This document shows, in pieces, positions 3,201-20,070 of a DNA stretch of 20,074 nucleotides; the stretch's first letter is position 1; each line of letters opens with the position of its first letter. A program made the translations under genes and the position numbers. Under the pieces are notes generated by a model. The model was given only the letters and a program-made list of their open reading frames with translations. It was not told the DNA's origin and did not search any database. The stretch spans positions 1 through 20,074 of the IMG/VR virus record IMGVR_UViG_3300010354_000906; one strand, given 5' to 3'. This DNA comes from a virus.

Positions 3201-3496
3201 ACGGAACGCAACAACTGAGAATTACCCGTTGCTTGCGGAACAGCAACAACGCGAGTGTCTTGGAACGCTCGCAAAAAGTAACACATCAACCCCTCGCCAG
3301 CCAAACGAGGAATTCCAAAGACCACTGCCTGTTGATTTACGTCGCACGTTGACCAAACAACGCGCCCATCGACAACGGTTTTCGTGACTGTTCCGTAAAG
3401 CGCGGAGGTCAGGTTGCCGAGGATGCTCGCAACACTCTCCTGAGACACAATGGGATACGGAATATCCTGTCTGCAAACATCTGATTCACAACTCAT
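233..3496 (-). CDS. Tail fibre / receptor-binding structural protein (fibre 2)
   Basis: A 1087-residue protein rich in Gly, Ser, Thr, Asn and Val with the repeat character of phage fibres. Residues 1-110 form a unique, probably virion-anchoring, N-terminus. A short motif REDHKHPSD near residue 175 resembles linkers seen in other phage fibres. The middle holds at least three copies of a module reading roughly ITNxGSGxSFVV then DTSPFVVDASGNVGI, and three copies of an EGGxIxFxRASDN block followed by AWxID and LRIxD. The C-terminal 150 residues are unlike the repeats and may form the tip. The start overlaps the endolysin stop as ATGA and has a good Shine-Dalgarno sequence (AGGAG, 5 bases upstream at 3502-3506), rare in this window. 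The role in host recognition is inferred from composition and context; no receptor-binding fold can be proven by eye. Confidence 0.85.
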   Translation of the reverse strand: MSCESDVCRQDIPYPIVSQESVASILGNLTSALYGTVTKTVVDGRVVWSTCDVNQQAVVFGIPRLAGEGLMCYFLRAFQDTRVVAVPQATGNSQLLRSVSVGSQNLNWIDFSESATAGTIVQRTSTGAITAAGLTVGASGITFSGGTIQTAAANPAIALPLIDGTATVGTSLLYAREDHKHPSDTGRLSTSGGALSANQGTQVLTITNNGTGGVLTLNSTATATQDVLTITNLGTGKSLIINDQTIPDTTAFVVDSGGNVGIGIDGLPLAKLQVEGNVQLGRQNSVDEGGQIDFCRASDNAKAWVIDCFGTDTGTNSGTLRIFDHQTTLARVTLTQSQFSVKNTFISESNSSFYGNINVDTQTQSAYNSTILVNVRNASTATADCFSITNNGSGRSFVVNDSNGDTSPFVVDASGNVGIGTSAPSDKLQVVGAGTFANLNVLPTSSSTAIYTVPENTAHGLYINVIPQTGMSGSAMLVRESGLTTRFEITKTGKVGIGAAATTAALRISGGGLEFPDGSIQNTAALTSGGGVLVSSGTSPTLGATNNGTGSSFVVANTSASTSDCVSIVNQGSGNSLFVGDQLSDTSPFVVDASGNVGIKTSSPLDALDVNGVVRLSRIDTTSEGGEIAFARASDNAVAWRIDQAGTTGNGALRILDAGGTVRLSLTETLVSTATPFTVTNTLTASSISSSGNITTTANVSGAYLLAKGAVINNTGGDSSIELGGDGNVYIDFKKPNTDDYDLRISTDGTASRLNCGTTGPLYLNDVSPQNVFAASGGGNLVVGTGSAISKLTVHGDVRLDSNGKLFLGRMNSTSEGGQLEFCRASDNTSAWIIDQSGSGNISGVLRFIESATQVTKLTIDSTLITAAVPISVPTPTLPSHATTKTYVDNKFNSIGGILAASVVFSGAQIAGTAWSRAIVNGTSTVTVTMANHNLAVYQYVYLIFSGSTANKPTDGWRSVTAIVSASQFEFVDEFNSTTASATAAVTQTLAIKDSASIKNITRTGTGVYNIDFSDYAQPYDANYVAYSQAMGASAATSTNMATQIRSKTTTGCSLIVQNASSGALADSAEITFVRFSPILNGYPFGV

Positions 3497-3957
3497 AACA
3501 ACTCCTGATTTTTGTTGTGACGCTCAAGCAGCGTCGCGATTGGCAAACCTTTTGAAAACTCGAAATGTGGGGCGTCGTACAACCCCTTGAAAGTCCCTCC
3601 CCACGTCAAGCCGTGTTTCTCTGCAATCGCTCCGGCTCGATGGTGCATGAGGTCGGCAGTTTTTGGCTCGCTGTCATCGAGGTATGACTTGCCTCGAAAA
3701 ACGCCACAGTCGATGGCTAGGCCATAATTGTGGTAGCTCTGACCCGCCTTGGCGTTGGTGACCCTCGGAAGGCTTTTGTTGGTGCGTCCTTGGGCGTATA
3801 GAGCGTCCTGCTCGGCAAATGTTCGCAAACTGGAAATGGCTCGATACTCGACGCCGAGTTCTGCCGCAATGGATTGAGCCTCAATCAAAAAGTCGCGAAA
3901 GCGTTGTTGCACTTTTGGGTGCAGCTTCGCGAGATTCTTCTCAGAGCGTTCATCCAT
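3493..3957 (-). CDS. Endolysin, M15-family L-Ala-D-Glu / D-Ala-D-Ala type peptidase
   Basis: A 154-residue protein with the motifs of the VanY/M15C zinc peptidases used by phages such as T5 to cut peptidoglycan cross-links at lysis. SSLRTFAEQDALYAQGR (residues 42-58) is the substrate-side motif. SYHNYGLAID (74-83) supplies zinc ligands H76 and D83. DAPHFEF (128-134) supplies the likely catalytic acid D128 and the third ligand H131. D128 and H131 are three residues apart, as in the T5 enzyme. Length is normal for a single-domain endolysin; no cell-wall-binding domain and no signal peptide are visible, so a holin is expected to release it. The start overlaps the stop of the upstream membrane protein as TAATG, which suggests coupled translation. 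The family call is firm; the exact bond cut is inferred. Confidence 0.93.
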   Translation of the reverse strand: MDERSEKNLAKLHPKVQQRFRDFLIEAQSIAAELGVEYRAISSLRTFAEQDALYAQGRTNKSLPRVTNAKAGQSYHNYGLAIDCGVFRGKSYLDDSEPKTADLMHHRAGAIAEKHGLTWGGTFKGLYDAPHFEFSKGLPIATLLERHNKNQELL

Positions 3958-4160
3958 TACCGTTCAGCGAGTTCCGCAACACGTTGCCAAAGTCTCTCCC
4001 TGTCTTTCTCGCAAGCCTCAGCCCGCGCTTCGACAGCGTCAATGCGCTTATCTGCTTTCCCCTCAGATTCTTTTAGCCGAGCGGCGAGCCACCATATGCC
4101 TCCACCAAGAACGGCTGCAATCGGGCCTTGAGCAATCAGACTTTCAAGGATTTTTTCCAT
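3957..4160 (-). CDS. Small membrane protein with coiled coil, lysis-associated (holin or spanin-like)
   Basis: A 67-residue protein with one hydrophobic segment at about residues 7-28 (including PIAAVLGGGIWWLAARL), then a charged helical tail full of Lys, Glu, Arg and Asp with heptad spacing. The layout of one N-terminal membrane helix and a coiled-coil tail is typical of small phage lysis proteins found beside endolysins: inner-membrane spanin-like proteins or accessory holins. It begins inside the 3' end of the holin-like gene (17-base overlap) and ends with TAATG coupling to the endolysin. A strong Shine-Dalgarno sequence (AGGAGG at 4164-4169, only 3 bases from the ATG) supports this start. 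Without a lipoprotein partner in view I cannot choose between spanin and holin. Confidence 0.8.
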   Translation of the reverse strand: MEKILESLIAQGPIAAVLGGGIWWLAARLKESEGKADKRIDAVEARAEACEKDRERLWQRVAELAER

Positions 4161-8911: not shown

Positions 8912-10117
8912 TTAGATGGTGCAGGTCGTCACACCCAGATTTTCACCGCAACGCTTGTAAGCGATTGCAGCTACGTTCTGCGGGCGAATCGGCTGATACG
9001 CACGCTGAATCTGGTAAATATGCTGACCGTAGTCCCCGTACATATTGCAGTCATTGTCGCGAAAGTACGTCCACTCCAACTCGCCAGCGAACAACTGAGG
9101 TGCCCACTTAAAGGTTCCCTCGCCCGTGTAAGCCTCTGGCGTAAGCCGCTTAAACGAGTCTCCACCAATGACCAACGCGATTTCATATGTCGCATTGACC
9201 CAATCCGCATTGCGTCTTGTTGCAAACCCGAAGCTGGCATTGGCCTTTGCGATTGGGCTGATGAAGTTTGGCCTACCGTTAGCGTCTAACGTGTTGAACC
9301 GCAAAGGCTGCTGGTCAATCCCGAATGCAAACCCGCGATAGCCTTGGAACTGATACCCCTTGATGGACTCTTCCCCCAGCTTGAAGGAACCTGCCGACAG
9401 GTAGTTCAGGTCTTCCTTTACGTCCGCGTCGTTACGCAGCTTTTCGATTGCGTCCGCACTGGCGATGACCTTGAAGAATTCCCCTTCAGCCGTCGTAAAC
9501 GGCTCTGCGAGCATTTCTTCGCGGAGGAAGCTGCCGAGACGATAAAGAGTCCGGAAGTTCAAATCTCCAGTCGGAAGATTGGTTGATGCACCAAACGTCG
9601 TGTTGATTTGCTGCATATCCCCAATCACATTTGAGTTGAAAGCCGTAGCAGCCTTCACCACATATTTGATGCCGCATTGATACTGCAACTGGTAGCGAAT
9701 GTCTGCGTTGATGATTTGCAGAATCGTCTTCTCCAGAGCGATTTGCGCTTGCAGGTACGCATTTTTAAATGCAGTGCGAGCGGTTTTAACGCAAACACGC
9801 GGCCCACGTCCGCGAAGCGATTGGAGCTTGAACGAATATTCGGTCGAGCCGACATCGTCAGGAGTCGCTCCGGTTCCGCACATATTGATGTCGTCCGTAA
9901 ATGCTGGCGCAGCAATGTTTTGTACGGAGTTCGGATACGCGATTTCCTGCACAACGCTGCGAACAGTGTCGGACACATTCGGGAGCGTCCCGCCTTCAAG
10001 CACGTTGATGTACGGACTCTTACGAGCGAGCGTCTTTGCGATTTGACCAACAATGCGGTTGGTGTCTTTTGCAGCGAAGTTGTTCGCTACTGCGATATCA
10101 ATACAGTCATTAGGCAT
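8912..10117 (-). CDS. Major capsid protein
   Basis: A 401-residue protein preceded by portal and scaffold genes, the usual place of the major capsid protein. The N-terminus (residues 1-50) is followed by a sequence alternating short beta segments and helices, with a central helix around AFKNAYLQAQIALEKTILQI and an Arg/Gly loop (LRGRGPRVCVK) that would suit the E-loop or an inter-subunit contact. There is no signal peptide or membrane segment. The length fits HK97-fold capsid proteins (about 300-450 residues). Eight cysteines are present, several near the C-terminus (KRCGENLGVTTCTI), which is many for a capsid protein. The start has an A/T-rich leader without a Shine-Dalgarno sequence. The gene is isolated by a terminator before and a hairpin after, which suits a highly expressed product. 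The HK97 fold is inferred, not seen. Confidence 0.82.
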   Translation of the reverse strand: MPNDCIDIAVANNFAAKDTNRIVGQIAKTLARKSPYINVLEGGTLPNVSDTVRSVVQEIAYPNSVQNIAAPAFTDDINMCGTGATPDDVGSTEYSFKLQSLRGRGPRVCVKTARTAFKNAYLQAQIALEKTILQIINADIRYQLQYQCGIKYVVKAATAFNSNVIGDMQQINTTFGASTNLPTGDLNFRTLYRLGSFLREEMLAEPFTTAEGEFFKVIASADAIEKLRNDADVKEDLNYLSAGSFKLGEESIKGYQFQGYRGFAFGIDQQPLRFNTLDANGRPNFISPIAKANASFGFATRRNADWVNATYEIALVIGGDSFKRLTPEAYTGEGTFKWAPQLFAGELEWTYFRDNDCNMYGDYGQHIYQIQRAYQPIRPQNVAAIAYKRCGENLGVTTCTI

Positions 10118-10360
10118 ATGATTTTAAAGAAGTTAGAGAGTTGGAGGTTGTGTGCTCTGCTCGCGGATTTTGGCGAGACAAAGCGATGCCACCGATGGTG
10201 ACAGTTTGGTTCTCGCCCACGGCACGCTTGGGCAGTTATTGCGGCCTGATTGCAGGTTTTGTTGACTCCTGCTAGTCGCTCCCATTCGGAGGGAGTGCGC
10301 CGAGCTATTTCTGGAACTAGCTCAAACCTCGATTGAGGTCAATAGGCTTTTTTGATGAAT
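10118..10360 (-). promoter_or_regulatory. Structured non-coding leader of the capsid gene
   Basis: The only long non-coding gap in the window. Besides the terminator at its upstream end it holds four small inverted repeats: 10326-10339 (5-bp stem, 4-base loop), 10302-10323 (6-bp stem GAGCTA/TAGCTC, 10-base loop), 10279-10295 (5-bp stem, 7-base loop) and 10245-10256 (4-bp stem, 4-base loop). Because a strong terminator precedes it, the capsid gene probably needs its own promoter here, but I find no convincing -35/-10 pair; the best, TTGACC near 10341 with TAGTTC 17 bases on, is weak. A 50-codon frame from 10285 to 10133 exists but looks non-coding. Confidence 0.5.
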
Positions 10361-10363
10361 CGA

Positions 10364-10401
10364 CAAAAAAATAACCCCCGCCCCAAAAAGGAGCGGAGGT
10401 T
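10364..10401 (-). terminator. Rho-independent terminator upstream of the capsid gene
   Basis: The minus-strand RNA forms a 12-bp stem (bases 10390-10401 with 10373-10384, two G-U pairs, otherwise Watson-Crick and G/C-rich) closed by a loop of five U residues. It is followed by an A and a run of seven U residues (10364-10370). It lies 16 bases past the stop of the glycosyltransferase-like gene. This is the clearest terminator in the window and should end the terminase-to-scaffold transcript. Confidence 0.9.
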
Positions 10402-10416
10402 GATTTGCTTCTCAGC

Positions 10417-11319
10417 CTAGAACACTGGGATTGCCAAATCGATGTGCGGGATATGCCCACTGGCTTGTGCCATCCTGCAAAACGCCTCATCTCCAGTGAG
10501 TTCTGGTTGAGGCGTGAAGAATTGAAACGGCTTGCTGTCAACCGCTCGCGCAGGGAATGTCTTTATAATGTCCTGAAGCGCACTGCGATGGATGAGCATA
10601 CAGTCGCTGCTAGTCCATTTTACACCTTCAATGCGATTCGGGAGGATGTCTGCCATTTCTGGGTTGATGGCTGAATCGGCCTTCAAGAGTCCGTTTCGAG
10701 GTGAGCCAACAAGCGCACCCACAACGGTTTTTCCAGCCGCAAACATTCGCTTCAAAACGTGCCGCTCTAAAATGTCATCAGAGAATGCTTTGGAACGCTC
10801 AACAAAAAGCCCGCGCAGCACTCCCGCTCGCCCAACAGCGGGCGTGTATTGCTCGCCGAGCAGGAAGAGCCACTGGCTTTCAGCTTCCTTGAGGAATCGG
10901 TCGCAGATGCTGTTTTTCGCGTCGTGAACAGTGTCCTGTGAGAACTCCCAATCAATCCGCAACCGCTCTTTTCCGCAATCAACAGCAAGAGCCAGCAATG
11001 CGATAAGCGTGCGCTTGCTCGCCTCATGCACCCAAGGAAGGCCCAGTGTGATTTCGCGCCCCTCCCAGTCCGGCGTGAATCGATTGTTGCCGCGCTCGGT
11101 TTTCGACTCGTTCAGCGCGAGTGATTTGCGCTTTCGCTCAACGGGCTGAGGCTCCGGCTCTGACTTCACTTCAGGTTCCGGCTCAGGCTCCGGCTGCGCC
11201 TCCGCAAGTTGCTCAGGAGCAGATTCCTGCACGTCGTCAAACGAGTCGGTCTCAAACGGGTTGAGGGATATCTCTTCGCCTTCCTTTAGGTCTTTTGTTT
11301 TCGTTCTGATTATTTTCAT
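10417..11319 (-). CDS. Glycosyltransferase (GT-A)-like protein lacking the DxD motif
   Basis: A 300-residue protein. Residues 1-65 are acidic and Pro/Glu-rich with EPEPEPE repeats. Residues 95-300 follow the plan of GT-A nucleotide-sugar transferases common in phages: a helix with the start AKNSICDRFLKEAESQWLFL (134-153), matching the usual 'ARN..v..fL....dwllf' segment; a strand-helix DDILERHVLKRMFAAGKTVVGALV (181-204, cited in two parts); a CMLIHRSAL strand (240-248); and GDEAFCRMAQASG (276-288), matching the usual '(G)EDxxFCxRAxxxG' acceptor-side motif. Where GT-A enzymes carry D-x-D after 'wllf', this protein has LLGEQ (153-157). It sits between scaffold and capsid. The fold is a pattern-based inference; catalysis is doubtful. 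Confidence 0.6.
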   Translation of the reverse strand: MKIIRTKTKDLKEGEEISLNPFETDSFDDVQESAPEQLAEAQPEPEPEPEVKSEPEPQPVERKRKSLALNESKTERGNNRFTPDWEGREITLGLPWVHEASKRTLIALLALAVDCGKERLRIDWEFSQDTVHDAKNSICDRFLKEAESQWLFLLGEQYTPAVGRAGVLRGLFVERSKAFSDDILERHVLKRMFAAGKTVVGALVGSPRNGLLKADSAINPEMADILPNRIEGVKWTSSDCMLIHRSALQDIIKTFPARAVDSKPFQFFTPQPELTGDEAFCRMAQASGHIPHIDLAIPVF

Positions 11320-11327
11320 GGCTTTAT

Positions 11328-12551
11328 TTATCTTTCAGCTTCACTGAGTCCTGCCTCGATTGCGTCAAGCGGATTCATGCTAATCCTTGAGGCAGAAGAC
11401 ACTTGCGGTTGAGTAACAACAGTGGATGCGTTTGACTTCGGCATCCGGCCCGCTCCGCTCACGGCTCCCATCCGCCCACGAAGTTGATTCAACTCGGCGA
11501 GCAGCGAAGCCTTTTCCTTCTGCTCGACCTCTAGTTGGTGCGTCAGAATGTGCGAGAGCGTCGCCGCTGCTGCAACCGTCGCCGCATCCTTCACCGTCTT
11601 CGGGTAGAGAGCAGACATATACTTGCCCTCCAAGTCTTTAACGTATTCGTTGTGTGAGTTGATTTTCGCAAGCTCTTCTTGAGAAGCATTTTGCGGAACT
11701 TCTTTGTATCTGAAGGCGGGAATGTCCTTGGTCAGTTCGTCAACGTGCTTCCAAGCCTCTTCGTGGTTTTTGTTAAAGTTCTGCTGGAACTCCTCCATCT
11801 TGTTTTTGTACCACCCGTCCGCATTCTGCTTTGCGTTTTCAATCTCGGACTGCATCTCAGCTTCGATGTCGTCGAGTTGCGCCAGTGCGTTTTCGATTTT
11901 TCGAGCGTCGAGGTAGGTCTCTTCGGAAGCAGCCAGCTTGTCGATGACGTTGGTTTTCCACCATGACAACGGAACCTTGCTCGGCCCGCCCACGTTTTGA
12001 ATTGCGGTGATGGTCTCATCGCTCGCTTTCCACTTCTTGAGCAACCCGTAAATCCCTTGCGATGCCTTGTCGATTTGGTCAGAGAACTTCTGGCGGAATG
12101 ATGGGTCATTCTGAATGTCGAACGTCGCCTTGAACTTTTTGAGTTCCTCATAGTCCTCCGGCGCAGTCGTTTGCGGTTGCCCCTTTTCAAGCTCCGCGAT
12201 GCGCTGCCTAAGCTGTTCAGCTTCAGCGGCTTGCTTTTTGTATGTCGCAGCGGTTTCTCGGAGCCTCTGCCAGTTTGAGCGATTCTTCTCGCTCATACCC
12301 TCCGGCTCTGCAATCGCAGAAATGTCGTCGTCAGGCGTTTGCTGTTGTTGTTGCTGCGGCGTTGACTGCTGAGATTCAGCGAGCTTCTGAGCCTGTTCAG
12401 CAAGTCCTCCTTCCGACGTGTTGTCGCCTGACGCGCCAGAATTTGCTGACTCTTCAGCGTCTAACATCGAGTCGATGTGCGCCTCTAATTCGCCGATACT
12501 TGCTTCGCTGTCGAGATTGTCTCCGCCAAAATCATCTTCGGTTCCGTCCAT
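11328..12551 (-). CDS. Capsid scaffolding protein
   Basis: A 407-residue acidic, hydrophilic protein placed after the portal and two genes upstream of the capsid gene. The N-terminal 80 residues are Asp/Glu/Ser-rich and contain a six-Gln run (66-71). About residues 85-120 form a coiled coil (containing ETAATYKKQAAEAEQLRQRI), and further heptad-like stretches occur around 225-265 and 340-365. Such an elongated, charged, cysteine-free helical protein with this position is what phage scaffolding proteins look like; they guide capsid assembly and leave before packaging. Ala and Ser-rich C-terminal residues could contact the capsid protein. No protease domain is visible. The start follows the previous stop by 2 bases, with no Shine-Dalgarno sequence. 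The call rests on composition and context, not on a recognisable family signature. Confidence 0.75.
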   Translation of the reverse strand: MDGTEDDFGGDNLDSEASIGELEAHIDSMLDAEESANSGASGDNTSEGGLAEQAQKLAESQQSTPQQQQQQTPDDDISAIAEPEGMSEKNRSNWQRLRETAATYKKQAAEAEQLRQRIAELEKGQPQTTAPEDYEELKKFKATFDIQNDPSFRQKFSDQIDKASQGIYGLLKKWKASDETITAIQNVGGPSKVPLSWWKTNVIDKLAASEETYLDARKIENALAQLDDIEAEMQSEIENAKQNADGWYKNKMEEFQQNFNKNHEEAWKHVDELTKDIPAFRYKEVPQNASQEELAKINSHNEYVKDLEGKYMSALYPKTVKDAATVAAAATLSHILTHQLEVEQKEKASLLAELNQLRGRMGAVSGAGRMPKSNASTVVTQPQVSSASRISMNPLDAIEAGLSEAER

Positions 12552-12793: not shown

Positions 12794-15211
12794 TTATACT
12801 GCTGATGTTTGCGGTTTTGGCGGATTGGAAATCTCCGAAATGACTTGATTCTGCGATGGGCCGCTTTGGTTTGTATACGCCTCTCCGGCAACTCCTTGCA
12901 TTGCTGCGCTTGGGCGACGCGGAGCACCTCCACCTCTTGGAGGAGCGGCTGCTGGCTCGATATCTGGCGGAGGCGGAACATTTTGCCCGCGCTGAATCTG
13001 TTGCGCGGCCAGCTTGTAAAGCTCCTTGAACGGCTCCAACTGCTCGCGAGGTGCTCCTTTGGCTTCGGCGTTTTGAATGTGCTGCGCGAAATGTCCAAAG
13101 GCCGCGACGAGCGGCATGATTCCCTCCGGCGGAAGTCCGTTTGGCGGAATGTTTTGAATCACCGGAGCGAGCTTCGCTGCCATCGTGTTGAGGTGAACCA
13201 TGTCATTGTCGCGAGGAGAAATCGGGACTTCCTGACCAGCGATAATCGATTGCAACTCAATGATTTGCTGGCGAGTCGCTTCGATTGCAATCGCCTCAAC
13301 AGAGTCTTTCGGAAGGATGACTTCGTTTGCAATCGTCTCGCCCAGCTTGCGCGTCCAATCCAGCTTCATCAGCTTGTCTTGGTCGATGTTCGGATTGCCC
13401 ATGTACTTGGTAATCATCAGGTCGAGAATCTGTAAATCCTGAGCCGTCGTATCTGGGTTCAGTTCAGCCGCTGGCGAGAATGCCATGAGCAAAATGTCAG
13501 ACGGAGGCAGGTTGCGCTCCATCATCTGGTAGCAGCAGTTGACCGCATCTTCGTCGAGATGGCGCGGGACTTCAAACGCCACAAGGAACGGAGGCATCTG
13601 CATTGAAGACTGCTCAAACGCATCGACGACTTCGCGTCGTGCCCAAACAGCGTTCGGGTCAACCTGCCGTGCTAGGTCAACCTTGAGCTTCAGGTCGGCT
13701 GCTGCCTTGATATGCTCAGGATGAGCAATCCCGCGCTGCATCCGCTCGACAGCGAGTGAGAACTGCCGCGAGAAGCGCGTCAGGATGCCCTCGCGAATCT
13801 GATTTTCGATGGAGGCGATGCGATTGATTTCCGAAGCCGTCTTTGGGTCGCCTTGATTCATCGCTGACGACGGCAAGAACGTGCCAATCTGGATTTCAGC
13901 GAGTCTCGACTGGAAGTTGTCGAGCATGATGAAGTCTTGAATGTCGGCAGGAGGCGACTGGGGGATGACTTCGTAACCTTCTGAAACGATTGCGATTGGG
14001 TTGCTAACCGTGAGAGGAGCAATGTTTGGCTTTGCGAGCGGCCCCTTTTTTAGGAGCAGCAGAGAGCGCACTAAAGTGTTGTCAACTACAAGGTTGCGCG
14101 ACTTGTCGATGGCAACGTGCGTGTTGTAAAGGTCGCGACCGACACCGCGAGAAGACATCAAGTTGCCGTTCCCGATATCAACAGAGAAGAGCGCGAGCGC
14201 GTCCGACATCTTTGCGTAGCGGTCAAGCTGAGTGCAAATTTCGTCGCCCGTTTTGTCGTCAACGAGGTAGCGGGAGACGCGCCCATGCGGCTCACGAACA
14301 ACGACTTCGCCCAAGTCAACGTACTTTGCGTCCGACTCGTAGGAAGCCCCGTAACTGCCCTCGCGAATCCAATCCTCTACCCGCCGAGCGTCGTCGTCGC
14401 TATTAAGCGAGCGTCCAGTGGGAGTCGCGCTGTTGATGGCTTTGATGAGGTTTTTGAGGTGCCATCCCGCCATCACCGAAATGTCCGGAACCTCCAGCAC
14501 GGGCAACAACTCCGCAATGAGATACCGACGCTTGCGTGCAAAAATCGGCGTCGCATCAGCCACTTGCGGCTGCTCGACGGAGAAGAAAACGTAGTCTTGC
14601 CGGAGGAAGTCGGGCTTCCAGTCGCGTAAATCGTCCCAAATCAACGCACAATAACCAAAGACCGTGTTTTCATGCACAACCTGCGCCACAAGGTCATCAA
14701 AGCCGCGCCAAGACCGAATGCACTTGGTTATCTCTTCGCGGAAGATTTTCGTTTTACGCTCCGAGTCAACCGACTCAATAGGGTACTTCGCAAACGTCAG
14801 GGAAGCAGCCTGTTCCACCGTCGCCTTGAATGGTGCCTGAACGCGGCCAGCCATCGTCGAGAGGAATCCGGTCGGGCGATTGCTGCGCCAGTTTTGGCCC
14901 ATGCTCTCCAGCTTCTTCGGCTCGTATGGAGTTTCGTTGTTTAACTTCTTCTGAATCAACTGGTTCTTGCGGTTGCGCTCCAAGTTCTGCTGTTTCAGGC
15001 GTTTATAAGCCGAATACGCCTGAGCAGCGTCGCGGAACGTGCGTCGAACCTTTAGCGTCTTTGGGTCAACGGTATCGTTGCTGTCGTTCGTTTTGTCGCT
15101 GACATCAAGACGCAGCCCACGCGGCCTATCCCCGACATTTTCAATGCGAGGTGCTTTGTCCGCGAACTTGTCCGTTATGCTTGGGTCGAAGGGTTTTGCT
15201 ACGTCTGCCAT
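12794..15211 (-). CDS. Portal / head-tail connector protein
   Basis: An 805-residue protein, large for a portal. The N-terminal 100 residues are charged and linker-like with a helical segment rich in Lys and Gln. The core (about 110-560) has the features of portals: a conserved-looking hydrophobic-aromatic region around 170-215 (HENTVFGYCALIWDDL), and a KTASEINRIASIENQ helix (457-471) of the kind that precedes the crown/wing helices in podoviral connectors, followed by a long helix through residue 495. The C-terminal part (about 735-805) is Pro/Gly/Ala/Gln-rich and probably disordered. It stands before scaffold and capsid genes and after a terminase module. The dodecameric ring role is inferred from family knowledge. 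No protease or lysozyme fusion is visible to explain the length. Confidence 0.8.
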   Translation of the reverse strand: MADVAKPFDPSITDKFADKAPRIENVGDRPRGLRLDVSDKTNDSNDTVDPKTLKVRRTFRDAAQAYSAYKRLKQQNLERNRKNQLIQKKLNNETPYEPKKLESMGQNWRSNRPTGFLSTMAGRVQAPFKATVEQAASLTFAKYPIESVDSERKTKIFREEITKCIRSWRGFDDLVAQVVHENTVFGYCALIWDDLRDWKPDFLRQDYVFFSVEQPQVADATPIFARKRRYLIAELLPVLEVPDISVMAGWHLKNLIKAINSATPTGRSLNSDDDARRVEDWIREGSYGASYESDAKYVDLGEVVVREPHGRVSRYLVDDKTGDEICTQLDRYAKMSDALALFSVDIGNGNLMSSRGVGRDLYNTHVAIDKSRNLVVDNTLVRSLLLLKKGPLAKPNIAPLTVSNPIAIVSEGYEVIPQSPPADIQDFIMLDNFQSRLAEIQIGTFLPSSAMNQGDPKTASEINRIASIENQIREGILTRFSRQFSLAVERMQRGIAHPEHIKAAADLKLKVDLARQVDPNAVWARREVVDAFEQSSMQMPPFLVAFEVPRHLDEDAVNCCYQMMERNLPPSDILLMAFSPAAELNPDTTAQDLQILDLMITKYMGNPNIDQDKLMKLDWTRKLGETIANEVILPKDSVEAIAIEATRQQIIELQSIIAGQEVPISPRDNDMVHLNTMAAKLAPVIQNIPPNGLPPEGIMPLVAAFGHFAQHIQNAEAKGAPREQLEPFKELYKLAAQQIQRGQNVPPPPDIEPAAAPPRGGGAPRRPSAAMQGVAGEAYTNQSGPSQNQVISEISNPPKPQTSAV

Positions 15212-15215
15212 ATCG

Positions 15216-15800
15216 TTATTGGTTGAGCCAGCACGCTTTAGGAAGCGGACTTGCAGGATTCAGGAAAGCGGTTTTGTCGAGCCAAACAGCGGTGCGGTTG
15301 CAGTGCCGCATGACGTTGCACGCTCCAAGTCTTTTGCTCGTCGTTGTGTCCCTCGCGGAGCGGATTGCAGCCGTCGTTCGCTCGACCGCATTAATGCAAC
15401 TTCCGCATCCGCTCTTCCACTTCACGTTGTGGTCGCACCGCTTGCAAATCTCAGCCCGCGCTTCTGCGACGCCCGCATCAACCCCAAGCGGTTCATTTTG
15501 CTGGTTGATTATTGAGGCAGACCATGCTTGCAAATCGTTAAGCAATGCTGGCTCGGCTACTGGCGAAGTAAGTGGACGCTGTAAATGCTGCTCTGTGTCA
15601 TAAAAATGACAAAAATAAGGCCAGCGCAAACAGAAGTATTCGTGAATCTCAGGCTCAACGTCTTTGTACGGAATGCCATTCTCTGCGCGATACGCCTCAA
15701 TCACGCTCACAAGATGCTCCACTGAATCTCCGCGCAGAATCACATCCCCTTCTGGGAAGTGAAACCCGTTTGGTGGAATCATTCCTTCAATCAGCTTCAT
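15216..15800 (-). CDS. Cysteine-rich hypothetical protein, putative zinc ribbon
   Basis: A 194-residue protein with nine or so cysteines. The C-terminal half has CKRCDHNVKWKSGCGSC, a CxxC-x9-CxxC pattern typical of a zinc ribbon, then GACNVMRHCNRTAVWL with a further CxxxxxC pair. The N-terminal half is unlike any family I know. Start overlaps the preceding gene's stop as ATGA, so it is translationally coupled to the ParB-domain protein; the portal begins 4 bases past its stop. Zinc binding is inferred from cysteine spacing only; a role in head assembly or in DNA handling is possible. I do not recognise a named family. Confidence 0.8.
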   Translation of the reverse strand: MKLIEGMIPPNGFHFPEGDVILRGDSVEHLVSVIEAYRAENGIPYKDVEPEIHEYFCLRWPYFCHFYDTEQHLQRPLTSPVAEPALLNDLQAWSASIINQQNEPLGVDAGVAEARAEICKRCDHNVKWKSGCGSCINAVERTTAAIRSARDTTTSKRLGACNVMRHCNRTAVWLDKTAFLNPASPLPKACWLNQ

Positions 15801-16300
15801 AACACAAACTCATGCAAGCACTTAGGGCAAATCGTCGTATCTTTCTTCGGCTTTTCCTCTTTCGGCTCAGGCACTTCCGCTGGCGAGCCAATCATATCCG
15901 CAATCTCCTGCTCTGTGAATCCGACGACCGTCTTGAACGATGGGTCTGCCTCCAGAATCGCATCGAGTTCCGAAGACAGAACGTCGTCGTCCCACGCCGA
16001 AAGCTGCGCGAGTCGGTTGTCTGCGATGGTGTACGCCCGAATCTCAGCCTCGGACAGGCCGGAGAGGCGGATGCACGGCACCTTCTCAAGCCCCAGTCGG
16101 CTCGCTGCCAACGCTCGACCGTGACCAGCGACAATCCTGTTGTTCTCGTCAACGAGAATCGGCACCGTCCAACCGAATCGCTTTATGGACTCAGCGATGA
16201 GGTCGATTTGCGAATCGGTATGGGTGCGCGGGTTGAATGCGTAACGTGTTAACGCAGACAGGTTTGTTTCTTCGACTTGAAATGGTTTCTTTTTGCTCAT
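15797..16300 (-). CDS. ParB/sulfiredoxin-domain protein with C-terminal zinc-knuckle-like end
   Basis: A 167-residue protein. NPRTHTDSQIDLIAESIKRF (23-42) and the box VAGHGRALAASRLGL (57-71) match the N-terminal ParB/Srx nucleotide-binding domain, in which a GHGR-type loop contacts the nucleotide. The segment IRAYTIADNRLAQLSAWDDD (88-107) is the usual continuation in phage and DNA-methylase-linked ParB-like proteins. The tail after an acidic-basic Pro/Glu/Lys linker ends CPKCLHEF, a single CxxC that may pair with other cysteines. No methyltransferase domain follows, and the neighbour is the Cys-rich gene. Plausible jobs are DNA binding, nuclease or partition-like activity; the family name is firm and the role is not. 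Confidence 0.88.
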   Translation of the reverse strand: MSKKKPFQVEETNLSALTRYAFNPRTHTDSQIDLIAESIKRFGWTVPILVDENNRIVAGHGRALAASRLGLEKVPCIRLSGLSEAEIRAYTIADNRLAQLSAWDDDVLSSELDAILEADPSFKTVVGFTEQEIADMIGSPAEVPEPKEEKPKKDTTICPKCLHEFVL

Positions 16301-16845
16301 TCGACGGAGTATTTATGCTTTGCCCGCTTCAGTCCGGACGGGAACTTGATTGATTCGCTGGTGAACGACCGCTCACTGAATACCACTCGGTTCGTCGGCT
16401 GACTAGTAAATCTCCCGTTGTCAAGTGCGGCGAACACGAACTCCTTGGACTGCTCAGGCTCGTCAGAGAATCCGTCGTCGAACGGAGCGGCAGTGAATAT
16501 GTACTTCCCTTTGTATCTCCGGCTCCCGCACTGGGCTACGAGCGGAAGGCCGCACAGGTAAGTATACGCGATGGTCGAGAACTGCCAGCCGTAGCAGCCC
16601 CACTCCTGCGCTGCTCGCATTCCCCAGCCGCTCACGGGTCGCTCACGGCTCGCCAGAGCGTGCAGCGGTAAGCCCCTGTAAATGGCTCCGTTCTCAAGCA
16701 TTACGGAGCAGCCCCACATCCTTGCTGGCGTGGAGGTTAACGCAAACCAAACCGCAGGGACGAATCCCTGCGGTTTGACGTGAGTGAACTTAGAGTCCAC
16801 CCAAACATACTGATGGCGAGGCAGTTCGCCAGCGAACGAATACAT
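16297..16845 (-). CDS. Hypothetical phage protein with aromatic/Trp-rich core
   Basis: A 182-residue protein, rich in Trp, Tyr, Phe and Cys, with a compact globular look. Notable segments are PARMWGCSVMLENGAIYRGL, EWGCYGWQFSTIAYTYL and the C-terminal QPTNRVVFSERSFT. No signal peptide or membrane helix. The start overlaps the previous gene's stop as TAATG and its stop overlaps the next start as ATGA, so it sits in a translationally coupled series. I recognise the general appearance of a conserved phage protein but no named family or active site. The coding sequence for residues around 23-33 contains a perfect inverted repeat with a UUCG loop (see separate entry). Confidence 0.85.
   Translation of the reverse strand: MYSFAGELPRHQYVWVDSKFTHVKPQGFVPAVWFALTSTPARMWGCSVMLENGAIYRGLPLHALASRERPVSGWGMRAAQEWGCYGWQFSTIAYTYLCGLPLVAQCGSRRYKGKYIFTAAPFDDGFSDEPEQSKEFVFAALDNGRFTSQPTNRVVFSERSFTSESIKFPSGLKRAKHKYSVE
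16748..16777 (-). promoter_or_regulatory. Perfect 13-bp intragenic hairpin with UUCG tetraloop
   Basis: Bases 16748-16760 and 16765-16777 are exact reverse complements. In the minus-strand RNA the loop between them is UUCG, the extra-stable tetraloop class. The hairpin lies within codons for KPQGFVPAV, 68-97 bases after the ATG. It is followed by GTTTGGTTTG-like sequence rather than a clean U run, so termination is uncertain. A role in mRNA processing, pausing or attenuation is possible. Confidence 0.85.
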
Positions 16846-18210: not shown

Positions 18211-20070
18211 TTATTCGCTGAAGTCCACAAATATGCTTGTGTCGTCGATGACTGAACGCATCCCAACCTGCTCGCGTTGAGGCTTTTCCTTGAGCATCCG
18301 CTGCTCAACGCCAAATCTGTGTCGAACGAGGTAAACCAGCAGCGACAACGAATCCAGCGCGTCCGGCGATGGTCTTCGTGTTCGCTTGCAGTACTCTTCC
18401 TTGCTTTCAACACGAACGAGTCCCAGCCCTTTTTGTTTGTATCTGCGTGCAGTCGCCTGACTTACAAGGTCGCTCGAAATGTGACCGTGCCGGATTTTGA
18501 GGTACTCAAACTCGACCCAGCGTGCGACGCCGAAGACAAGCTCAGTGACGACTCCGTTGTAAAGCTCTGATGCGGAGCGACTATCGTCAGCGAATATCGG
18601 TATATCCGACGCCGCGCTGCTGAAGTTAAGCCCCATCGTTTCCTCGCCAAATCGCGAGCACAGAACGTCATGGATGCCCGCCCCGTTCCCAGTTCTGTCA
18701 ACGATAAGTCCGGACGGTGCGATTTTCATCTCGCGGCAGAAGGCAGCGATTGCGTCAGCCTGTTCCAGCGTTGGCTTCTTCGGAAACGGCATCTGCGCGT
18801 CGAGTTGCAGCACGTTGCGCGGCCCATCCGGAAACTCTCTGAACGTGCCGTCCAGCCCTTTCCAGCCGTCAGAGAGTCCGTAACGCCCGTGCGAGCACAT
18901 GACCTTGTCGTTGCCCTCCAGAGCCAAGTCGAATGCGGCGAGCGGCACCACTGGCCCGATGAAGCGAGCGATGCCCATCGCCTTGTCCATCAGGTTCGGG
19001 CCGATGATTGCCATCGCGGCTCCCTCCTCCGGAAACCAGCCGCGAGCCATCGTCATTGCCTCAGCCGTGTGACCTCGGCTCATGTAGGACATAAACCCCT
19101 CGTAGGTTTGCAGCCCGTGGTGGACGATGCGACGTTCCATCACGTTCTCGCAGCGTGCGGCGTCGAGTCGCAAGACGTGGAACCCCATGCCGGAGTCCCA
19201 CTCCCAATCCTCCTCGCAATCCACGCTGCCCCAGCCTGTCCTCGGCTCGCACCGCTGCCCGAAATCTGACGTGCGGTCTTTGGGGTTGCTGGCTGCGAAA
19301 ATCTTAACACGGTTGCGGTCGTGCTTTAAATCGACCGTTGAGAGGATGTTGTTGATGCCCTCCCAGACTCCCGCCGGAATCTCCTCGGCCTCATCGAGGA
19401 CGACGTGAGTGCGGCTCAAACGCCCCCAGCGCGGATGCTCCGGCCCAGAGCGCGGGGACGGATGGAACCCACGCAACGTACCGTGCCCGCTCTCGCCCCT
19501 TGGGATTGCGACGAGATGGATGCCCTGCTTGCTGTCCGCCGTGACCTGCAACGAACCTTGCAGGTCGTCCGCAACCTCGGTCAGCGGACGCACCAACGCG
19601 CTCCGGTGAAAGTTCCGGATGGACGCGAAGATGTTGCGCTCGGCGTGCTCACGGGTGAGCGAGACGACCTTGATTGCTGTCCAAGCTGGGTCGCGATACC
19701 AGTCGAGGTAAAACCATGCTCCGGCCCCATACGATTTGCCCATCGCCCCCGCCCCCTGAATGAGGAGCTTGTCGTGCTCGAACAGGCAACGCCAAGTCTC
19801 GCGTGATGAGAGCGGAGTCCAGTCGTATGCGCTTGAACCCCAAAGGATTGTGGCAGCAGCCTCAAACTGGTCGTTGTTGAGCAGTGCCATAACGTACTGC
19901 CGCACAACGTCTTCGGCTTGTTCAAGCGTCAGTCTCCTTTGTCCTCGGAGCGTCGAGAAGTTCTGCAGGATGATTCCGGCAGCGTGAAGGATGCCGGACT
20001 CCTCATCGGCCTCAGCGGCAGCGCGGATGCTCTCGGCAGCGGCGAGTGCGCGTTGGACGGGCGTTATCAA
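18211..20070 (-). CDS. terL: Terminase large subunit, ATPase and nuclease
   Basis: The DNA-packaging motor of the phage: an ATPase that pumps DNA into the procapsid through the portal and a nuclease that cuts the concatemer. Residues 106-113 (GAGAMGKS) are the Walker A loop, 223-230 (VVLDEAEE) Walker B with catalytic Glu, and 258-263 (FAASNP) the coupling motif. The C-terminal nuclease has D381 in AAFDLALEGND, D458 in GLIVDRTGNG, and D570/D573 in SPDALDSLSLL, the usual metal-binding acids. 619 residues is normal length. The start shown is a TTG four bases from the window edge; the frame is open upstream, so the true start may lie outside. The protein ends FVDFSE*. Position before the regulatory and portal genes suits a packaging-to-head operon. 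Confidence 0.92.
   Translation of the reverse strand: MITPVQRALAAAESIRAAAEADEESGILHAAGIILQNFSTLRGQRRLTLEQAEDVVRQYVMALLNNDQFEAAATILWGSSAYDWTPLSSRETWRCLFEHDKLLIQGAGAMGKSYGAGAWFYLDWYRDPAWTAIKVVSLTREHAERNIFASIRNFHRSALVRPLTEVADDLQGSLQVTADSKQGIHLVAIPRGESGHGTLRGFHPSPRSGPEHPRWGRLSRTHVVLDEAEEIPAGVWEGINNILSTVDLKHDRNRVKIFAASNPKDRTSDFGQRCEPRTGWGSVDCEEDWEWDSGMGFHVLRLDAARCENVMERRIVHHGLQTYEGFMSYMSRGHTAEAMTMARGWFPEEGAAMAIIGPNLMDKAMGIARFIGPVVPLAAFDLALEGNDKVMCSHGRYGLSDGWKGLDGTFREFPDGPRNVLQLDAQMPFPKKPTLEQADAIAAFCREMKIAPSGLIVDRTGNGAGIHDVLCSRFGEETMGLNFSSAASDIPIFADDSRSASELYNGVVTELVFGVARWVEFEYLKIRHGHISSDLVSQATARRYKQKGLGLVRVESKEEYCKRTRRPSPDALDSLSLLVYLVRHRFGVEQRMLKEKPQREQVGMRSVIDDTSIFVDFSE

Follow-up and report, generated by a model that had tools for sequence, protein, structure and literature searches.

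A DxD-less protein of predicted GT-A fold, encoded just behind the scaffold gene in an uncultured phage lineage, is a candidate pseudo-glycosyltransferase

The window, by which we mean the whole stretch of DNA analysed, is an IMG/VR phage record of 20,074 bases in which the recognisable phage genes, tail genes included, all lie on the minus strand (Table 1). A PHROG 3704 protein and a ParB-N-domain protein sit between the terminase and the portal, inside the packaging-head cluster. The portal showed no convincing match to Pfam and none among annotated phages, and the scaffold-like protein showed no convincing match to Pfam or PHROG; the latter was recognised from its position, composition, size and large family, and a small ORF lies between the two genes. 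Downstream of the scaffold-like gene is the gene for the protein studied here, which we call GT1, followed by a terminator, a structured RNA leader and the major capsid gene. The window also encodes, at 3493-4160 on the minus strand, an M15 peptidase (PF13539, E 9.5e-16) that is a likely endolysin, and beside it a 67-aa protein that opens with a possible membrane helix and could be a holin or spanin.

Table 1. Positions of the genes and features described in the text (window coordinates unless a locus is named).
Feature	Position	Strand	Basis
Terminase	18211-20070	minus	PHROG 2
ParB-like gene (ParB-N-domain protein) and PHROG 3704 protein	15797-16845	minus	PHROG 620, E 2.4e-50 (ParB-N-domain protein); PHROG 3704
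Portal	12794-15211	minus	Named by position, size, large family
Scaffold-like protein of 407 aa, the gene immediately before GT1	11328..12551	minus	Synteny, position, composition
GT1, 300 aa, DxD-less protein of predicted GT-A fold, candidate pseudo-glycosyltransferase	10417..11319	minus	ORF, AlphaFold2 model, PDB matches, PHROG 1574 in 44/44 of aligned family
GT1 N-terminal extension, residues 1-85, mostly disordered; NPF peptide and Pro-Glu linker	11065..11319	minus	Low pLDDT over 1-68; N-terminal comparison
GT1 LLGEQ, residues 153-157	10849..10863	minus	G155-E156-Q157 aligned to DxD of relatives
GT1 GDEAFC, residues 276-281	10477..10494	minus	D277 family-invariant, matches GT-A helix Asp (catalytic-base position; putative equivalence)
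GT1 early C-terminal end (IPVF-stop)	10417..10431	minus	Relatives run on as HVGYKTY, including conserved His
Intrinsic terminator between GT1 and capsid leader, 12 pairs, 8 G-C, then ATTTTTTT	10373..10401	minus	
Structured RNA leader of capsid operon (hairpin, H-type pseudoknot, second hairpin)	10209..10305	minus	No Rfam match
Major capsid protein, 401 aa	8912..10117	minus	Weak PF03864, position; 163 viral relatives
Leader examples in other loci	L090:8611-8708, L149:5302-5402, L113:8798-8894, others		

The GT1 ORF opens with ATG and recurs in five further IMG/VR records at 93-100% protein identity, and an assembly artefact was therefore rejected. On its own, the window protein gave no useful match to Pfam, PDB sequences or annotated phages, and a weak one to PHROG 1574 (E 0.027). 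AlphaFold2 modelling with a 44-sequence alignment predicted, with high confidence, that residues 85-300 form a GT-A domain; block-mean pLDDT was >90 over most of residues 91-300, with a few blocks at 80-90, and residues 1-68 were disordered in the model. GT-A enzymes led the matches of this model in the PDB (Foldseek and VIA-align), with Z scores of up to 17.2. The structures matched were COLGALT1, LH3 (residues 293-514, Z 17.2), STIV A197 (Z 17.1, 159 residues, 2.2 A), mimivirus R699, Mnn9, SpsA and TarP, and more weakly PBCV-1 A64R. A relative with an intact DxD motif (L032) yielded the same kind of model and matched the same structures. The sequence-only reading of this DNA was thus confirmed for the ORF and its LLGEQ and GDEAFC motifs, and the GT-A fold it had proposed is supported by structure prediction and fold search.

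Portal and capsid protein scans of viral contigs yielded 160 loci, and phmmer detected a GT1 homologue in 125 of the 166 loci in the set at that stage. A further family-profile scan gave 106 distinct GT1 sequences and two outgroups. Two scans of bacterial genome contigs, with the GT1 and portal alignments, found no relative. PHROG 1574 was matched by every member of a diverse aligned subset (best 1.9e-13), and the glycosyltransferase PHROGs 2456 and 34859 by 32 and 30 of these 44 members. Matches of the family to Pfam (Glyco_tranf_2_3 and Anp1) were both weak, and PF00535 was found in none of four window-lineage records and three intact relatives, the family being invisible to that model. By homology, its place after the scaffold gene and its NPF-type N-terminal peptide, window GT1 belongs to this scaffold-linked, PHROG 1574-like family. 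All homologues carry an N-terminal extension of 74-153 residues (median 115.5; window 84) in which the NPF-type peptide is conserved (residues 20-22 in the window), so the suggestion that the acidic Pro-Glu N-terminus was added to this protein is not supported. The extension was of low confidence in the models of both window GT1 and L032, and such a disordered N-terminus with an NPF peptide would suit a tether.

We then considered gene order. GT1 was present, right after the scaffold gene, in all 69 distinct portal- or capsid-anchored contigs with scaffold and capsid genes. In a wider set of 83, which includes contigs fetched with GT1 itself, all 83 had it between these two genes and on their strand. 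Between scaffold and GT1 the median gap is 18 bp (8 bp in the window); between GT1 and capsid it is 1888 bp across the whole set, and the window lineage has 294-299 bp there; the 299 bp of the window hold the terminator, a promoter-like site and the structured RNA leader. GT1 lies between scaffold and capsid, as placed earlier, but its description as next to the capsid gene needs correcting, since the scaffold gene is by far the closer.

Outside the window lineage, GT1 heads a sugar-modification island of variable content ahead of the capsid gene. ORF2 comes next after GT1 in 67 of the 69 contigs, the two without it being the window lineage. It encodes a protein of about 195 aa with a conserved SDYDV, whose GGGWMSDYDV motif resembles the DxD of sugar transferases by eye only, and gave no convincing match in Pfam, PHROGs or the PDB. 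Other island genes are GT9-like (weak), GT34 (PF05637) and methyltransferases, the last two above Pfam cut-offs. Example islands between scaffold and capsid are L094:6257-8770, L099:6109-8720 and L173:6990-8887. Only the window lineage is without an island beyond GT1, and it also lacks the GT1 C-terminal tail. No partner sugar enzymes were found in this lineage, and no second GT1 or ORF2 was found elsewhere in the longer relatives of the window, the ORF2 search having positive controls. A second, intact GT1 copy was considered and none was seen in five related records of up to 61.6 kb (possibly incomplete). The position of the islands suggests that they modify the virion, probably by glycosylation, and the GT1 family is most simply read as a glycosylation enzyme of the head operon. 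The literature searched contained no description of sugar-modification islands between scaffold and capsid.

The leader of the capsid operon covaries strongly: it showed two-sided changes in 18 of 19 pairs, with 90.5% of cells pairing across 29 distinct leaders, and its covariation score was 0.756, whereas shuffling gave 0.27 and sliding the partners gave 0.11-0.22. It carries a conserved AGCGTGCCG hairpin loop and a CAGGCCG linker, and in most of the 50 sources that were searched, some of which were used to build the model, it is located some 100 nt ahead of the capsid start or of a gene inserted there. In part of the group a sulfatase-modifying-factor-like gene (PF03781, E 6.9e-23) is inserted between the leader and the capsid gene (L021:14781-15764, L091:7933-8955 and L075:8370-9485), some copies having a signal-peptide-like N-terminus; the leader then precedes this gene. 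No paper on RNA leaders of phage capsid genes turned up in a literature search of partial coverage, and the element may be a new cis-regulatory RNA in the capsid operons of phages. A comparison of window 8912-12551 with L003 gave a dS of about 0.2 in GT1, scaffold and portal and of 1.19 in capsid, a jump that suggests a recombination boundary within the GT1-capsid gap.

Alignment of the family showed D-x-D, the metal- and nucleotide-sugar motif that in GT-A enzymes ends the donor-site strand, intact at exactly the position of G-E-Q in the window in 91 of the 106 distinct relatives. The absence of the motif from the window protein, pointed out in the sequence-only reading, is therefore a true loss, with GEQ in all six records of the lineage, and is not general among homologues. 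A shifted or frameshifted DxD was rejected; the motif columns align gap-free and GEQ is seen in both sub-lineages. The degraded forms are GEQ (window lineage), GND (L031), AND (three sequences) and DNN (nine). When the motif columns were left out of the alignment, a bootstrapped tree had four DxD changes, with DNN and AND each beside DND sisters (support 99/94 and 98/90), indicating that these two losses were independent. GEQ and GND were joined in a quick tree and apart in a careful one, and as both are long branches their exact placement is unsure. Loss is the simpler direction of change because the outgroups carry DSD and DHD. Taken together, the sequences suggest that DxD was lost about four separate times (GEQ, GND, AND and DNN).

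We also compared the degraded forms at the 64 columns that are at least 95% conserved among intact-DxD members. DNN differs at four (the third motif Asp, the C-terminal His and two R-to-K changes) and AND at three (the first Asp, T-S and I-V), so that in these two forms the non-conservative changes hit the metal site and the rest is kept. GND differs at 13 columns and GEQ at 29. The C-terminal His, present in 98% of DxD-intact relatives, is absent from window GT1, which ends at PVF. Overall, 13 of the 15 degraded sequences lack it, as do 2 of the 91 intact ones, counts that represent few independent events; it is missing in three of the four DxD-loss lineages and in one of the three AND sequences, and a tree-aware test of whether the His and DxD are lost together was not significant, with too few events. 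Asp 277, at the catalytic-base position by a role inferred from A197, is invariant across the family and kept in the window; W235, H244, R245, G163 and R164 are kept there too.

The DxD-less GT1s with close pairs (GEQ, AND and DNN) are under strong purifying selection, with a dN/dS of 0.02-0.10, and are therefore working, maintained proteins. Core dN/dS (NG86) in the window lineage was 0.10, from 27.7 synonymous and 10.3 nonsynonymous changes (Fisher p 2e-11) in one close pair representing the two GEQ sub-lineages. It was 0.020-0.027 for DNN, 0.084-0.096 for AND and 0.012-0.14 for intact pairs; GND has no diverged pair and so fell outside this comparison. Window-lineage GT1 has nevertheless diverged fast, with an identity to the rest of 0.32, where other pairs of comparable scaffold or portal identity have a median near 0.60, and a very long stem branch of 3.8 changes per site.

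Known systems provide partial parallels. STIV A197 (PDB 2C0N) is a viral GT-A glycosyltransferase with DxD and a helix Asp base and a candidate for coat-protein glycosylation (PMC4187194). It resembles window GT1 in being viral and in the GT-A fold over GT1 residues 88-300; unlike GT1, it keeps DxD and the Mn site, comes from an archaeal virus and was matched as a chain without an N-terminal tether, at 13% identity. PBCV-1 A64R (PDB 2P72; Foldseek rank 49) is a GT-A enzyme that has been connected with the glycosylation of a major capsid protein, but belongs to an algal virus, is presumed active and matched weakly (E 1.8e-3). The accessory (AC) domain of human LH3 is GT-A-like and reported to be non-catalytic (PMC6082870). 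The LH3 match of window GT1 falls on this domain, and the second domain of mimivirus R699 is a further counterpart. Window GT1 itself has a predicted GT-A fold and has lost conserved residues, and may be of this type. The non-catalytic use of the fold thus has a precedent, so the suggestion that it would be previously unstated is not supported. The AC domain is, however, one domain of a multi-domain enzyme beside an active GT domain, whereas the window encodes no active partner nearby. Among phages, mycobacteriophages Che8 and Rita are cited, in PMC11256854, for phage-encoded glycosyltransferases and glycans on their major capsid proteins. In the related Maravista, the glycosylation genes lie near the genome 3' end, in contrast to the GT1 island between scaffold and capsid (PMC11256854); that paper describes no pseudo-enzyme. 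A literature search of partial coverage found no paper on a phage pseudo-glycosyltransferase.

We propose, as the best supported of the readings but with confidence about evenly poised, that window GT1 is a pseudo-glycosyltransferase derived from a probable virion-glycosylation island and retained for a non-catalytic role linked to the head. Its ancestor would have been a metal-dependent GT-A glycosyltransferase heading an island that, in this uncultured phage group, separates scaffold from capsid. A single deletion, starting at the GT1 end and reaching the capsid promoter, may have taken both the GT1 tail and the partner enzymes; it would account for both losses because the IPVF stop lies just before the HVGYKTY of relatives and is followed by the terminator and the capsid leader. 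The protein would no longer transfer sugar, and selection would keep a role in binding that is tied to the assembly or the surface of the head. In this picture the NPF peptide, on its flexible linker, would act as the tether, and the GT-A domain would serve for recognition as a rigid module. Persisting selection after loss of the metal site and partner sugar genes suggests a non-catalytic job, probably head building or decoration. Recruitment to such a role also fits the tight linkage to scaffold and the loss of all partner sugar genes, along with purifying selection on a DxD-less gene.

More tentatively, about four lineages may have lost the metal site yet kept GT1 because it already had a second, structural role, in assembling or decorating the capsid; the window lineage would then retain that role alone, using the GT-A fold as a head morphogenesis or virion protein. 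We find it doubtful that window GT1 is instead an active, metal-independent glycosyltransferase whose donor may have changed. Certain GT-A families that lack DxD, such as that of the GT14 core-2 enzyme, work metal-free, and sugar transfer is conceivable because D277 and many other conserved residues, those listed above among them, are kept. Strong purifying selection and the fall of E156 within the old motif are consistent with this, and a new enzymatic specificity would also fit the window lineage, since its 29 changed columns reach beyond the metal site. On the other hand, the conserved His has gone as well in most of the DxD losses, partner sugar enzymes were not found in the lineage, and no gain of basic residues was demonstrated.

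Many phages encode glycosyltransferases that change the sugars on the host surface, and island content varies, as might be expected if the family modified host surface glycans, in superinfection exclusion or receptor masking, and not the virion; the window copy would then act either as a decoy or as the regulatory subunit of some host enzyme. We consider this unlikely, as GT1 is fixed inside the head operon, close behind scaffold in every contig, and its viral structural neighbours A197 and A64R are tied to coat-protein glycosylation. It is quite improbable that GT1 is a vestige, an islandless glycosyltransferase drifting to loss, for although the long stem branch and low matched identity would fit, the frame is open in every record of the window lineage, core dN/dS is low and the predicted fold is intact.

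That the metal site was lost repeatedly and selectively, the remainder of the protein being conserved, amounts to a natural experiment that parts a binding or structural role from catalysis. A pseudo-glycosyltransferase retained for a head-linked role, as we favour for the window lineage, would supply a phage example of this class of protein. In addition, environmental phages carry a large number of sugar-modification islands in this fixed place between scaffold and capsid, which makes virion glycosylation in uncultured phages testable.
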